The translations under genes were made by a program, and so were the position numbers. DNA of 64,000 bases from NCBI RefSeq assembly GCF_039522665.1, contig NZ_BAAADV010000008.1, positions 1-64,000 of the forward strand, written 5' to 3'. The first letter of the stretch is position 1, and each line of letters starts with the position of its first letter. The notes under the pieces were generated by a model. The model saw only the letters and a list, made by a program, of their open reading frames with translations. It had not been told where the DNA came from and searched no databases. The DNA comes from Natronoarchaeum mannanilyticum. GTDB lineage: Archaea; Halobacteriota; Halobacteria; Halobacteriales; Natronoarchaeaceae. This document shows, in pieces, positions 26,866 to 54,370 of the stretch.

Positions 26866-27336
26866 TTATTGGTTTACGTCGATGCCCCGGAGTTCGAGCA
26901 ACTGCTTTGCGATTTCCTCGGGATGCTCGGCGGCGACGCGGAGCGCCGCGTCGTGGAGCTCCCGACCGGCGGCGTCGCGCACGTCGTACTCCCGAAGCGT
27001 TCGTTCGACGTCCAGTTCGAGCGCGTCCTCGAAGGCGTTCCACGCTGCCTCGCGAGCGTACAGGGGGCGCTGTGTCACCTCGTCGTACGGGAACGCGGGT
27101 CCGTCGCTCGGACTCGCGGGATCGGAGGTCGTGTCGACGCCGTCGGCGCCGGTCGAGGGTTGGGAACCCGAGAGGTCGTCAGCAGCCGGCGACGGCTCCC
27201 GTTCGTCGCGCTGGACACCCGGGTCCGCTGACGAGGAGCTGTCCGACTGCGAATCGCTCGATGACGCCTCGCTTTCGGCGTCGTCATCGGCATCGTCGTC
27301 GAGCCCGTCAAGGTCGTCGAAGGGATTCCCGCTCAT
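26866..27336 (-). CDS. Acidic ParA-partner protein
   Basis: 156 residues. Residues 1-85 are disordered and very acidic/Ser-rich (DDLDGLDDDADDDAESEASSSDS). Residues 86-156 form a compact helical region: FPYDEVTQRPLYAREAAWNAFEDALELDVERTLREYDVRDAAGRELHDAAL. Haloarchaeal ParA genes are often followed by such proteins, which may bridge ParA to centromere DNA or to other factors. It overlaps the parA end by 4 bp. No ParB-type HTH is visible. Confidence 0.7.
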   Translation of the reverse strand: MSGNPFDDLDGLDDDADDDAESEASSSDSQSDSSSSADPGVQRDEREPSPAADDLSGSQPSTGADGVDTTSDPASPSDGPAFPYDEVTQRPLYAREAAWNAFEDALELDVERTLREYDVRDAAGRELHDAALRVAAEHPEEIAKQLLELRGIDVNQ

Positions 27337-28199
27337 CGCTCGATCCCTCCGTTCTCGACGATCCCAGCGAGTTCCTCGAAGTGCTGGATCTGGTCGTTGT
27401 CCGGATCGTAGTCCTGCAGTGGCTGGTTGTACTTCAGCGACCGAGAGAGCGCCGCGCGGTGCCGGATTCCCGGTTTCGGCGGTGCCGTCTCGCCAGCATC
27501 GATCTGTTCGAACTCCTCGGCAGTGATGCGGGCAAAGTTCGGCACCTTGCCCTCGGTGGTTTCGGCGGTGTTGAGATTCTCCAGAAGTTCGCGCGCCTCG
27601 GTCTGCTGGTCGATCCGGTCCTGGATCTGGTTCGGGACGACCGCGAGGACGTCGATGTCGATGTACTCCTGGGCCGGCGCGATGAGCCGTTCCATCGTGC
27701 GCTTGTACCCGCCGATCGCGCTCGAGCCGGGGGCGATCGGGATCATCACGTTGCCGGTCGCGACGAGCGCGTTGTTGTTGAGCATCCCCGGGTACGCCGG
27801 GCTGTCGAACACGATGTAGTCGTACACGTCACCCAGCAGCGGGTCGACGACGTTGGATTTGACGCGGGCGGAGCCCTGGATCGCGCCCTTCAGGTCGTTT
27901 TCGACGTCTTCGAGCGTGTTCGACGATGGCAGCAGGTCGAACCCGAACTCAGTCCGCTGGATCAGGTCGTCCAGCGTTGCGTCGCCCTGGTCGAGCACGA
28001 CGTCCCCGACGTTGATGTCGGACTGGTAGGCGTCCTCGAAGCCGAGGCCGTTGGTCGCGTGGCCGTTCGGGTCGAGGTCCGCGAACAGCACGCGGTGCTG
28101 TTCGGCGAGCTGGCGGGCGAGGTTCATCGAGATCGTCGACTTGCCGACGCCGCCTTTCAGGATCACGACGTCGACGGCGCGTGGTTCGGTAGCTGTCAT
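27333..28199 (-). CDS. parA: ParA/Soj family ATPase
   Basis: 288 residues. Deviant Walker A VVILKGGVGKSTISMNLA near residue 11-28 with the signature first lysine, then FADLDPNGHATNGLG (Walker A'), and YDYIVFDSPAYPGMLNNNAL (Walker B). Drives segregation of replicons by ATP-dependent DNA binding. Start chosen at MTATEPRAVD (28199) since upstream codons are in the iteron DNA. The 9-bp iteron array starts 14 bp upstream and is likely its centromere and perhaps its operator. Confidence 0.9.
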   Translation of the reverse strand: MTATEPRAVDVVILKGGVGKSTISMNLARQLAEQHRVLFADLDPNGHATNGLGFEDAYQSDINVGDVVLDQGDATLDDLIQRTEFGFDLLPSSNTLEDVENDLKGAIQGSARVKSNVVDPLLGDVYDYIVFDSPAYPGMLNNNALVATGNVMIPIAPGSSAIGGYKRTMERLIAPAQEYIDIDVLAVVPNQIQDRIDQQTEARELLENLNTAETTEGKVPNFARITAEEFEQIDAGETAPPKPGIRHRAALSRSLKYNQPLQDYDPDNDQIQHFEELAGIVENGGIER

Positions 28200-28212: not shown

Positions 28213-28825
28213 ACGATAGGTGCGATAGCTGAGGTAGCTACGATAGGTAGCTCCCGCACCTTCGGTCGCTTTGCAACTATTCCGCAAACGTACTAAAGCT
28301 TCCGGAGGTGAACAAGGTACAATAGGTGCGATAGCTGAGGTAGCTACGATATGCACATATTCTCAGAGAGACCTCGTATATTCCACAGTGCAATCATAGC
28401 AGCCAGAGGCGAACAAGGCGAAATAGATGCAATAGGTGAGGTAGCTAAGGTAGGCATATCCCGGACCGGCCCACGAAATAGACCCGAGAAACAGCGAGAC
28501 AGGGAGGGACAGACAACAATAGGTGAGATAGCTCCAATAGTTTGATTCAGTGCTATGTATCAACAGCTGGCCCACAGAGATCGAGCCTGGGAAGTGGGAT
28601 TACTAGACTACAATAGGCAGAATAGGTGCAATATCTGCGATAGAAGAACGCGAACCACGAACCTGGGCGAGCGAGCACGTGCAGAACTGTCTCGAGTACA
28701 ACAGCTATGCCAACACAATAGCGACAACATCTACAATAGGAGACTATTCTCCAATGAAAGTGTCCGAGCGTTGCGGATCGCATGGCAGGGAGACCAGTAC
28801 AATAGCTAAGATAGGTAACTAAGGC
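28213..28825. repeat. Centromere-like array of 9-bp iterons
   Basis: Direct 9-bp units near (A/G)(C/A)(A/G)ATAG(G/C)T, head to tail in 2-4 copies per cluster. Clusters at 28213-28248, 28319-28354, 28420-28455, 28516-28542, 28610-28645, 28715-28741 and 28799-28816, so a new cluster starts every 84-106 bp. Typical run: ACGATAGGT, GCGATAGCT, GAGGTAGCT, ACGATAGGT. The spacers are unrelated and no protein is coded. Position directly upstream of parA suggests a partition site. Confidence 0.75.
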
Positions 28826-28879
28826 AGCTAAGCCACGCTACCTGGGATACCTGCAGTAGCCGCCAAGCCAGAGAGGCAG

Positions 28880-34058: not shown

Positions 34059-35018
34059 CTACTGCCGGTCCGCCCGCTCGCGAACAGTCGTCTCGATCAC
34101 GGAGACGGTCTCGTCGATCAGCACGTCCAGCTTGTCGTCCCCGCAGGGCAGCGACAGCCGGACGCGAAGCGGCTCCTCCGAGACGACGGTCGTGTACTCG
34201 TCGCTGACGCACCAGTCGAACTGCCAGAACGGCTCGGTGTTCAGATCGACGCCGCGGTTCGCGTAAAAGACGAGCGTGTCGGAGTGGTCCAGCAGCGTGA
34301 CGCCGACCGTCGACTGGAGGCTGTACTGGCAGCGCTGGCAGACGTGCTCGACGCCGACGTCGAGGTCGGCATCCGCGGGATCGCGAACGAGACTCGTCTC
34401 GACGGCGCCGGTGCACTCGGGGCAGACGCCGTCGGCAGCCAGGCAGTAGTGGTGGCGAACGTAGTGATGGAACGCCTCGAGGAGGTCGTCGGTCGATCGG
34501 TCGTCGAGCCCGCCGGACGGGAACGGGTAGCTCACCTGGACGGCGCCGCAGTCGACGCAGCCGATCGAGAGGGTGTCGTCGACGTACCAGCCGTGGAGCT
34601 CGCCGTCGCACGCGTAGCACGACCCTTCGACGGGGAAGAAGCCGAGCTGCGCGCGTTCCGTGAGGGCGCCGGTGAAGATCGAGCTGACGACCTTTCGGCC
34701 GGGGTAGCGGAACTCGTACCCGTCGTCGCTCTGCTTGACGAAGTGGCCGGTGAGCTGGCGGAGGTGGTAGCTGAAGTTCGCGCTGTCGTCGATGTCGACC
34801 TGATCGAAGAGGGCGGTGAAACTCACGGGGTGGTCGTCCGCGCCGAGTTCGAGCAGCGCCCGGAGAATATCGACGCGGGTGTCGTTCCCGAGCGTCGAGA
34901 AGACGTCCGCGGGGAGCAGCTCCGATTCGGTCCGGGCGGCGGGCGCAGCGTCGCTCTCGGAGTCCGAATCCGTGTCCGCGTCCGGCTCGGAGCCGGCGGT
35001 CCGATCGAATTGGCTCAT
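34059..35018 (-). CDS. ArsR-like winged-helix protein with zinc ribbons (DUF7351-like)
   Basis: 319 residues. An acidic N-terminus (1-38), then wHTH TLGNDTRVDILRALLEL...FSYHLRQLTGHFV, then CYACDGELHGWYVDDTLSIGCVDCG and CPECTGAVE...HVCQRCQ, two Cys4 zinc ribbons. This arrangement is common in halophilic archaea and annotated DUF7351/DUF7347. Probably a transcription factor; targets unknown. Confidence 0.82.
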   Translation of the reverse strand: MSQFDRTAGSEPDADTDSDSESDAAPAARTESELLPADVFSTLGNDTRVDILRALLELGADDHPVSFTALFDQVDIDDSANFSYHLRQLTGHFVKQSDDGYEFRYPGRKVVSSIFTGALTERAQLGFFPVEGSCYACDGELHGWYVDDTLSIGCVDCGAVQVSYPFPSGGLDDRSTDDLLEAFHHYVRHHYCLAADGVCPECTGAVETSLVRDPADADLDVGVEHVCQRCQYSLQSTVGVTLLDHSDTLVFYANRGVDLNTEPFWQFDWCVSDEYTTVVSEEPLRVRLSLPCGDDKLDVLIDETVSVIETTVRERADRQ

Positions 35019-35569
35019 ACTGCGTATACTACCGCTCTACTGGTGAAAACCCATCGAAGGATGAGCCGAGTTCCCAGTAGGAAGTGCCTCGTAGCCACTT
35101 ACCGACGTTTCGGCAGCTACTCGCAGAAACATTCTCGTATCTTAGTCTCCTCCACAATCTCCTCGTAGAGCGTAGCGGCGAGTCGGTGAATCGTCTGAAC
35201 TAGTGTTTTTTCGGAGATACCCGTCTGATAGTAGGACTCCAGTCGGTTCTCGAGTCAGAACTCTCTTCCCTCGTCTGCCAAGCCGCCTAACCAGCAACGC
35301 CCCCACGCTACTCCGATCCAAAACCACCCATGCGCAATAGGTGAAAAAGTTACAATAGTTGCAATAGGTGCAATAGTCTGGTGGTGAGATCGCAGTAAGT
35401 ACACGGATCCGACGATGAGAACGGGCCCGTCGGCGCCCAGGGACACCACCTCAACCAATTCAGTCACAGGTGCAGTTATTCGACCCTCGAGTCGAGCGGC
35501 GCCCGGACGTGTACGATACGGCTGGAATCTTTATATGGTCTAATTTTGATAGTAAAACGGGCCTCGACT
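35019..35569. other. Intergenic with orphan iteron cluster
   Basis: 550 bp between divergent genes. It holds five 9-bp iterons (35334-35378), described separately, and the promoter of the next gene (TTTATATGG, 35530-35538). No other gene is supported. Confidence 0.5.
35334..35378. repeat. Orphan cluster of five parA-type 9-bp iterons
   Basis: Units GCAATAGGT, GAAAAAGTT, ACAATAGTT, GCAATAGGT, GCAATAGTC run head to tail. Consensus and 9-bp phase match the array upstream of parA (28213-28825), 6.5 kb away. One unit is degenerate. Confidence 0.72.
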
Positions 35570-36190
35570 ATGGCGCTAACGAACCGCTGGAACCGGGTTC
35601 GGTACCGGCTGTACGCGCCGATCTACGACACGGTGGCGCGGCCGCTGGAACGGGGTCGAAAGCGGGCGATCGAGCGACTCGATCCGAGCCTGGACAGTCG
35701 GATCCTGATTCTCGGCTGCGGAACCGGAATGGATCTCGAGTACCTTCCGGAGTCGGTATCGGTGACGGCGATCGATCTGACATCCCGGATGGTCCGACGG
35801 ACTGCAACTCGTGGGACCGCTCTAGATCGTGACGTCGCCGTCGGAATCGCGGACGCGCACAACGTACCGTTTACCGAGGGGTCGTTCGATGCGGTCCTGC
35901 TGCACCTCGTCCTCTCGGTGGTCCCCGATCCCGCAGCCGTGGTCGCCGAAACCGAGCGCGTCCTGACGCCGGATGGTCGCGTTTCGATCTACGACAAGTT
36001 CGGCCCGGAGGACGGCGACCCGTCGTTCGCCAGGCGAATCGCCAATCCGATCGCCCGTCTCCTGTTTGCGGATCTCAACCGCCCGCTCGAACCGATGCTC
36101 GCCGATACGAGCCTCACCGTCGGCCGGCGAGAACAGTTCCTCGGTGGCCTCTATACGGTCACGATCGCTCGTCGGGACCCTGGCGAGTAA
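35570..36190 (+). CDS. SAM-dependent methyltransferase (UbiE/PmtA-like)
   Basis: 206 residues. ALTNRWNRVRYRLYAPIYDTVARPLERGRKRAI then ILILGCGTGMDLEYLPE (motif I), VTAIDLTSRMV, LLHLVLSVVPDP (motif IV) and VSIYDKFGPED. The N-terminal YAPIYD is typical for phospholipid or quinone methyltransferases. Start 35570 fits the TATA at 35530. Confidence 0.85.
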   Translation: MALTNRWNRVRYRLYAPIYDTVARPLERGRKRAIERLDPSLDSRILILGCGTGMDLEYLPESVSVTAIDLTSRMVRRTATRGTALDRDVAVGIADAHNVPFTEGSFDAVLLHLVLSVVPDPAAVVAETERVLTPDGRVSIYDKFGPEDGDPSFARRIANPIARLLFADLNRPLEPMLADTSLTVGRREQFLGGLYTVTIARRDPGE

Positions 36191-38193: not shown

Positions 38194-38311
38194 GAAGGTA
38201 CGTCACGTCCTGCCCTCGGGGAGCGTCGTCACGGTCGGGTCGTGTCCGGGCCGGTCGTTCGACGAACGGACGGTCCATCTCTGCGGCCGCGGTCGGTAGT
38301 TCGCGACGGAA

Positions 38312-38359
38312 CGGCGATACGACGAAGCGGCGATACGGCGAAGCGGCGATACGAGCGAG
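38312..38359. repeat. Three tandem 16-bp repeats
   Basis: CGGCGATACGACGAAG, CGGCGATACGGCGAAG and CGGCGATACGAGCGAG run head to tail after the permease gene. The first two differ by one base. Not coding as far as can be seen. Confidence 0.7.
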
Positions 38360-38448
38360 TACGCGTGGGGAGGGTGCAACCCACCGACGACGATTTACGA
38401 AGACAAACCCGCTTTTTACCGTCTGTGGTAGAAAGTAAACGGTGAACG

Positions 38449-53050: not shown

Positions 53051-54370
53051 ATGTCCGGTCCCGGTGGTGACGAGCGAACGGAGGGGAGTTCGATCAGAGA
53101 GCTCCTTCTCGAACAGGAGGACACGGCGAGTCTCATCCGGGACCGAACGCTCCTCGATCCGAACGAGGTCGTTGACGAGGACCGTATCGTCGGTCGCGAC
53201 GCCCAGCTGGAGTCGATCACGCAGTATCTCAGCGTCGTGATCCAGCAGGAGCGTCCGCCGAACCTGCTTCTCTACGGCCCATCGGGAACGGGAAAGTCGC
53301 TGATCATCAACGCCGTTTGCCAGAACATCGACGAGCTCTGCGAGAGTCGGGACATCCAGTTTGGCGTCGTCGAGATGAACTGCCAGAACGTCGGGACGCT
53401 CGGCTCGGCGGTGTACGAACTTGCGCGCCGCGTCGCCGACGACGCCGGCACCGAGGTACAGGTGCCGGAGCACGGCATCCCGACGAAAAAGAAGTGGCGC
53501 GAACTGTATCGGCTGATCAACGAGCACTACGACACGATCGTGTTCGTGCTCGACGAGCTCGACATGCTGGTCGGACGTCGCGACAAGGACGAACCCGCCT
53601 TCTCTCGACTACTCTACCAGCTCTCGCGCGCCGGCAGCACCAACGAGGTCACCGCGAACGTGTCGGTCACGGCGATCACGAACGACACGAAGATGATGGA
53701 AGACGTCGGCAGTCGCGCCCTGAGTTCGTTCACGCCGGAAGACGTCCACTTCGACGATTACGATGCGAACCAGCTCCGGGAGATTCTCCGGCACCGGGAG
53801 GACGCGTTCTACGAGGATGCGCTCTCGAATGACGTCATCCCGCTCGCGGCGGCCTTCGCCGCCCAAACACACGGCGACGCCCGTAAGGCGATCGACCTGA
53901 TGCGAACGGCCGGCTCGATCGCGGAACGCGCCGGCGCCGAGGAGGTCGAAGAAGCACACGTTCGGCGAGCCCAGGACAAGGTCGAGAAGAACCGGGTTCT
54001 CGAAGTCACTCGCGGAATCAGCACCCAGAAGAAACTCTGCCTGTTCGCCACGGCCGCCGTCGCGCAGGAAACCGGCGACGGCGCCGCGAAGAGCCCACAC
54101 GGCTACACGATCTACCAGTACCTCACCGATACGCTGGACGCCGACCAGTACCACCAGGAGACGTACGTCAACAAGATGAAGGAACTGACGACGTACTCGC
54201 TGGTCGAGTGCGAGCGCAAGAGTCAGGGCCCTCACTCCGGGAGTTACCTGGAGTTCACGTTCGGCGAAGACCCCGGGACGATCATCGAGACGCTCCGCGA
54301 GGACTCCCGGATCAGTGACATCGACGCCGGCGACCTCCGGACGGTCGTGAACGCGCAACTCCGTGCGTGA
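53051..54370 (+). CDS. orc1/cdc6: Orc1/Cdc6 replication initiator
   Basis: 439 residues. AAA+ ATPase with Walker A YGPSGTGKSLIINAV, Walker B VFVLDELDMLVGR, sensor SVTAITNDTKMMEDV, and lid YDANQLREILRHREDAF. C-terminal winged helix is about 330-439 (KLCLFATAAVAQETGDGAAKSPHGYTIYQYLTD). It should bind the flanking ORB-like repeats and load the helicase. Start ATG 53051. Confidence 0.95.
   Translation: MSGPGGDERTEGSSIRELLLEQEDTASLIRDRTLLDPNEVVDEDRIVGRDAQLESITQYLSVVIQQERPPNLLLYGPSGTGKSLIINAVCQNIDELCESRDIQFGVVEMNCQNVGTLGSAVYELARRVADDAGTEVQVPEHGIPTKKKWRELYRLINEHYDTIVFVLDELDMLVGRRDKDEPAFSRLLYQLSRAGSTNEVTANVSVTAITNDTKMMEDVGSRALSSFTPEDVHFDDYDANQLREILRHREDAFYEDALSNDVIPLAAAFAAQTHGDARKAIDLMRTAGSIAERAGAEEVEEAHVRRAQDKVEKNRVLEVTRGISTQKKLCLFATAAVAQETGDGAAKSPHGYTIYQYLTDTLDADQYHQETYVNKMKELTTYSLVECERKSQGPHSGSYLEFTFGEDPGTIIETLREDSRISDIDAGDLRTVVNAQLRA

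Follow-up and report, generated by a model that had tools for sequence, protein, structure and literature searches.

INTRODUCTION

The centromere-binding proteins (CBPs) of bacterial type Ib partition systems are small, have an unstructured N-terminus, and also act as repressors (PMC5016525). Type Ib systems such as TP228 ParFG-parH and that of pCXC100 have their centromere, composed of short direct and inverted repeats, ahead of the operon (PMC5016525). The delta-omega system of pSM19035 combines a small ParA with a small partner whose N-terminus is disordered, and its contiguous short units, which occur in both orientations, overlap the par promoters (PMC9499535, PMC5016525). Four contiguous units are the minimum required (PMC9499535, PMC5016525), several sites are present per plasmid (PMC9499535), and omega accepts direct and inverted heptads as a two-fold dimer (PMC5016525). 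In the reviews consulted, the archaeal segregation systems described are SegAB and pNOB8 AspA-ParBA, both from Sulfolobales (PMC5120986, PMC12284271, PMC9178275). SegAB pairs a ParA-type ATPase with a small site-specific DNA-binding protein whose sites lie upstream of the operon and elsewhere on the replicon (PMC12284271). In pNOB8, an archaeal plasmid, partition involves ParA together with a protein that binds a palindrome (PMC5120986, PMC9178275). We found no haloarchaeal centromere in the literature searched, which took in a minority of subscription journals; this agrees with the first-pass annotation of the DNA studied here, which knew of none.

Here, we describe a locus in a window of 64,000 nucleotides (the whole stretch of DNA that was analyzed) from Natronoarchaeum mannanilyticum, in which an array of 9-bp iterons of the form TRMRATAGS, a proposed centromere and operator (28213..28831, + strand), precedes parA and a gene for a small partner protein. 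The locus resembles pSM19035 in its small ParA, in a small partner with a disordered N-terminus (whose binding to the units is proposed here), in contiguous short units in both orientations that overlap the promoter region, in cluster sizes similar to the required number of units, and in multiple sites per replicon (cf. the satellite clusters below). It differs in that pSM19035 has 7-bp WATCACW heptads rather than a 9-bp frame with subfamily-specific sequences; in that omega is a proven ribbon-helix-helix (RHH) protein with a short tail, whereas the partner described here has a long acidic linker and a fold with no detected relative; and in that the pSM19035 par genes are transcribed separately, whereas parA and the partner gene overlap here. 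The upstream repeats of TP228 and the other type Ib systems are also comparable, but those systems are bacterial, their repeat architecture differs, and their CBPs are unrelated by sequence to the partner as far as tested. The repeat unit of pCXC100 is 9 bp long. SegB, an RHH protein, recognizes isolated 13-bp palindromes, unlike the contiguous 9-bp slots here, and SegAB is chromosomal and crenarchaeal (PMC12284271). A SegB-type site was rejected, since its 13-bp palindrome with an AGAnTCT core (PMC12284271) is unlike the TRMRATAGS units and their subfamily variants. The pNOB8 system differs in having three proteins, a 23-bp palindrome, AspA in first position, an extra ParB adaptor, and no iteron lattice. 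What appears new is the candidate binding-protein family, the 9-bp frame, and sequence drift at constant period; the principle resembles that of bacterial type Ib systems.

RESULTS

A phased array of 9-bp units upstream of parA

The first-pass annotation had described ~24 units of 9 bp that begin 14 bp from parA and recur in clusters every 84–106 bp over 600 bp. Its description proved accurate: we counted ~25 plus-strand units in 28213-28831 (PWM sites >5 bits), found 13 bp between the first unit (28213) and the parA ATG (28199), and delimited seven clusters with 87–107 bp between centres. Specifically, cluster 1 (28213..28248, +), read directly from the sequence, consists of four tandem units, ACGATAGGT GCGATAGCT GAGGTAGCT ACGATAGGT, and is followed by cluster 2 (28319..28354, +; ACAATAGGT GCGATAGCT GAGGTAGCT ACGATATGC), cluster 3 (28420..28455, +; GAAATAGAT GCAATAGGT GAGGTAGCT AAGGTAGGC), cluster 4 (28516..28542, +; ACAATAGGT GAGATAGCT CCAATAGTT), and cluster 5 (28610..28645, +; ACAATAGGC AGAATAGGT GCAATATCT GCGATAGAA). 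Cluster 6 (28698..28741, +) contains degenerate units with sites at 28703, 28720, and 28738, and cluster 7 (28799..28831, +) contains ACAATAGCT AAGATAGGT and then one off-frame unit. The array also includes minus-strand units, which keep the same 9-bp frame as the plus-strand ones.

The clusters, of three to four units each, are regularly spaced. Their first units (core A at 28218, 28324, 28425, 28521, 28615, 28703, and 28804) are 106, 101, 96, 94, 88, and 101 bp apart, and the intervals between cluster centres, with both strands counted, are 107, 97, 98, 87, 101, and 96 bp. The coefficient of variation (CV) of the cluster spacing is 0.067 (P ~4e-5 versus random division of equal spacer length), and the autocorrelation proposed as a check at 9 and ~100 bp has its maxima at lags of 9 (z 5.2) and 101 (z 3.9). 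Overall, the 900 bp before parA contain 36 PWM sites versus 2.84 expected from Markov shuffles; the PWM was trained partly on the window array, and the same units are also present in 25 independent orthologous loci. An exact two-unit pattern was absent from the remainder of the 3.57-Mb genome. A short tandem repeat with 16/8-bp units (CGACGAAGCGGCGATA) at 38304-38363 has no obvious relation to the 9-bp units.

Clusters 1 and 2 are almost identical, indicating that local duplication has occurred. Tandem duplication was nevertheless rejected as the origin of the ~100-bp phasing, since the inter-cluster spacers, with the repeats removed, are mutually dissimilar. The near identity of these two clusters is also what a functionless, neutral remnant of repeat expansion might display, but such an origin for the array is very improbable given the unmatched spacers, the persistence of the units and their 9-bp frame across many genera, and the confinement of satellite clusters to the same replicon (see below).

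The parA-partner gene pair and its replicon

The parA gene (27333..28199, −) encodes a Walker-type partition ATPase of 288 aa, as judged from Pfam, PDB matches, and orthologues. Its product matches Pfam AAA_31 (1.3e-26) as well as CbiA, is related to Soj/ParA structures in the PDB (phmmer), and carries the deviant Walker A motif of the type I ParA family (KGGVGKS, starting at residue 15). It has no N-terminal HTH and is small, as are the ParA proteins of type Ib systems. The 306-kb contig contains no tRNA genes and an Orc1/Cdc6 gene at 53051-54370, a gene content as expected for a megaplasmid; a search for terminal overlap of the contig, i.e., circularity, found none. We assign plasmid status because of the lack of tRNAs and the records of relatives, the 20 best annotated relatives being on plasmid records in a searched collection that consisted of plasmids. 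Some family members are located on 3–4 Mb contigs, and therefore the system is not strictly plasmidic.

The stop codon of parA is overlapped by 4 nt by a gene for a proposed CBP of 156 aa (26866..27336, −), which is kept in 25/25 close orthologues; in those examined, its start is always at −1 nt relative to the end of parA. Type I systems have a second gene in the operon for a site-specific DNA-binding adaptor, and the partner is a candidate for this role. It consists of a short N-terminal motif of F-x-x-L type (NPFDDL), a long acidic disordered linker, and an 80-residue C-terminal domain, and this three-part architecture is common to all subfamilies: the N-terminal motif varies (NPFDDL, GFDDLEEA, NRFAGLSDA, or DRFAGLDE), and an acidic linker follows it in nearly every subfamily. 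A partner profile matched 193/391 genomes of the class (54/86 genera), whereas 85 genomes of other classes in the phylum gave no match, so the gene appears, in the samples, to be conserved and haloarchaea-specific.

An AlphaFold2 model of the C-terminal domain, built from a 61-sequence alignment, had a mean pLDDT of 91.7 and a pTM of 0.77. With a predicted disordered middle and a confidently folded C-terminal domain, the partner is a candidate for the type Ib CBP layout, in which a disordered N-terminal tail precedes a C-terminal DNA-binding domain. The modeled monomer contains an extended QRPLYAR segment followed by helices 22-42, 50-63, and 65-75, an order of elements that fits a monomer of the RHH superfamily, whose strand and two helices build an intertwined dimer, with a first helix longer than usual. 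Searches of Pfam, NCBIfam, PHROG, and the PDB returned no convincing relative and no RHH Pfam match; hhalign against haloarchaeal RHH_1 proteins gave a probability of 0.1%, and Foldseek found no match among solved and viral structures. RHH membership, which thus found no match by sequence, profile, or fold, is not claimed. A ParB-CTPase partner of type Ia was likewise rejected, as the 156-aa protein has no ParB/HTH family match.

Conservation of the 9-bp frame

The comparison of parA upstream regions, on which the first-pass annotation had let its reading depend, covered 25 close orthologues (ParA 75–83% identity), many of them on plasmid records or sub-chromosomal contigs. Units were kept upstream of parA in 25/25 of these loci, with 9–33 sites per locus in stretches of at most 900 bp versus 1.5–2.9 expected. 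Among same-strand unit pairs no more than 60 bp apart, 552/697 were at 0 mod 9; 298/398 convergent pairs were at 3 mod 9 and 172/224 divergent pairs at 6 mod 9. Because these distances follow one strict frame, forward and reverse units occupy the same 9-bp slots, as if each slot were taken by a two-fold-symmetric protein dimer. A weaker second frame, offset by 4 bp and containing the palindrome AATAGGTnCCTAT, is also present.

We further analyzed a divergent set (ParA <60% identical), for which 40 loci were fetched and parA was found in 39. For 79% of 38 divergent loci, the 9-bp comb statistic of the 500 bp preceding parA was above the 99th percentile of 1000 control windows, a threshold that 1% of random windows pass. 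The share was 89% among all 93 loci, which include some same-strain duplicates from two collections and are not fully independent. A few divergent loci had no clear 9-bp signal. The unit sequence differs among subfamilies, with TAGST-, CTnAGG-, TCTATTC-, and TGTASACA-type units. Phase scores were above the null-run maximum of 14.2 in 12/19 subfamily sets; these scores are inflated, as the EM motif search for each subfamily picks the best of 25 seeds by phase, and the seven values below 14.2 were not counted. The period is thus better conserved than the letters, since unit sequences drift while the 9-bp period persists.

The regular ~100-bp spacing, which the first-pass annotation had singled out as the key higher-order feature, is borne out in the window and does not extend beyond it: in relatives, the units form a single dense block or irregularly spaced clusters (CV 0.25–0.5), and the phasing was rejected as a family trait. 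What is conserved, on this sequence comparison, is the 9-bp frame and not the ~100-bp phasing. In L057, clusters extend to about 950 bp, and L092 (G179:C4), from the same genus (ParA 91%), has a distal palindrome in addition to two clusters. The L092 array is followed by transposase-like sequence, which suggests that an insertion may have shortened it. A tentative lead is that TAGST-like cores occur with partners that have a P/A/Q-x-Y-A/P-R segment, and TGTASACA or ACATTG cores with partners that have S-x-Y-V-R; in L109, whose ParA is 40% identical, the TQRPLYAR segment of the window partner and the unit type of the window occur together. The centromere reading of the first-pass annotation is well supported by the comparison: the units persist in 25/25 orthologues, the 9-bp period persists in most distant relatives, and a gene for a conserved candidate binding protein directly follows parA.

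Satellite clusters on the same replicon

A satellite cluster of five 9-bp units (35334..35378, +) lies 7 kb from parA; beyond it and the array, the 306-kb contig has no in-phase cluster. This satellite has 3 mismatches to a three-unit pattern. With up to 2 mismatches, this three-unit pattern had 46 matches in 11/12 genomes tested, all of them on the parA contig (product of contig fractions, ~1.6e-13), and they include 13 satellite clusters at distances of >3 kb from parA. The three-unit matches replaced those of a two-unit pattern with 2 mismatches, which gave a high background. The window satellite is located between a DUF7347/DUF7351 regulator-like gene (34059-35018, −) and a methyltransferase gene (35546-36190, +) and could also affect the expression of both.

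Promoter and leader elements

In the window, clusters 1 and 2 lie on either side of a TATA-like TTTAGTA (28291..28297, −), a candidate parA promoter element that also occurs in L092. Scanning the 25 orthologous loci for promoter elements, which were placed at −132 to −37 from parA, revealed the palindrome AATAGGTnCCTAT 37–84 nt before parA in most close orthologues and a TATA-like GTAGAnTTAAG typically 59–62 bp upstream of it in nearly every orthologue with both. These elements, together with the one between the window clusters, would suit an array that serves only as a multi-site operator for parA autoregulation, the true centromere lying elsewhere, e.g., in the satellite clusters. We consider this unlikely: 600 bp and seven clusters are more than repression needs, and the L057 clusters reach still farther out. 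Moreover, operator and centromere functions are commonly combined in type Ib systems (PMC5016525, PMC9499535), so an operator role is a sub-case of the centromere reading rather than a full alternative to it.

The leaders of 10 loci (L038, L039, L041, L042, L044, L045, L048, L049, L053, and L054) have a possible 9-bp stem of the GTCCGCTG with CAGCGGAC type, ~20–90 nt before parA, which closes over the operator palindrome and reaches the ribosome-binding region. One pair shows a compensatory change, and the stem is absent in the window.

A paralogous par pair with iterons inside the partner gene

The same genome contains a second par pair on contig C6 (L002; G000:C6:49175-50925), with a ParA 38% identical to that of the window. 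Its iterons (TACAATGTC / TGCACTTTC type) have a sequence other than that of the window units and are located both upstream of parA and inside the partner gene (L002 720-1496 and 2320-2470). Each in-gene 9-bp unit corresponds to three codons of the disordered linker of the partner, and the 9-bp comb of the linker DNA is 2.87 (control-window 99th percentile, 0.94). In this partner gene, A/T makes up 0.61 of third positions in iteron codons versus 0.15 in the other codons, and AGT is the serine codon in 11/17 cases in iteron codons versus 1/20 elsewhere. This suggests DNA-level selection inside the coding sequence. Among divergent loci, iterons inside partner codons were clear in the C6 paralogue only.

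An orc1/cdc6 gene adjoins the C6 par pair, and the window contig has an Orc1/Cdc6 gene as well. Direct iterons are typical of plasmid origins, and the units might accordingly be replication iterons bound by Rep or Orc1/Cdc6, with the array as the plasmid origin. This reading is improbable: the window orc1 gene is 25 kb from the array, the array accompanies the parA-partner pair in 25 orthologues and in the majority of divergent loci, unit sequences differ from one subfamily to the next in step with the par pair, and satellite clusters are scattered over the replicon.

DISCUSSION

We read the array as the centromere-like site at which a ParA-type system partitions the plasmid; the partner protein would bind its units, and the parA promoter would be controlled through it too. 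We put the probability of this reading at roughly 0.85. The best reading of the whole locus is a type-Ib-like ParA system with a new candidate centromere-binding family and with a 9-bp lattice that serves both as centromere and in control of the parA promoter.

We infer that the partner would bind the 9-bp units, with one two-fold dimer per slot, and that dimers in successive slots would form a short continuous nucleoprotein filament on each cluster. The FDDL-type N-terminal motif, held on its long acidic tether, may engage nucleoid-bound ParA-ATP. This contact would stimulate the ParA ATPase, and the replicon would follow the ParA gradient, as with omega and ParG in type Ib systems. Because the array flanks and overlaps the parA promoter region, the same binding would be expected to repress parA and the partner gene. 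The satellite clusters may provide extra loading or anchoring sites. A wider proposal, offered tentatively, is that haloarchaea have a partition system in common whose CBP, of a new DNA-binding fold, coats a strict 9-bp lattice. The letters of this lattice would diverge between lineages at a constant period, satellites would be spread over the replicon, and one lineage would carry the lattice in the linker codons of the CBP itself.

These results provide a candidate centromere and an unannotated candidate binding protein for the partition of haloarchaeal megaplasmids. The partner family occurs in 54 of the 86 sampled haloarchaeal genera, and the proposal is testable in tractable haloarchaeal hosts. 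Since the letters change within a constant 9-bp frame, the subfamilies form a natural series for studies of centromere specificity and plasmid incompatibility. The array looks like a DNA handle, and is our candidate for the one by which haloarchaeal plasmids are shared out at cell division.
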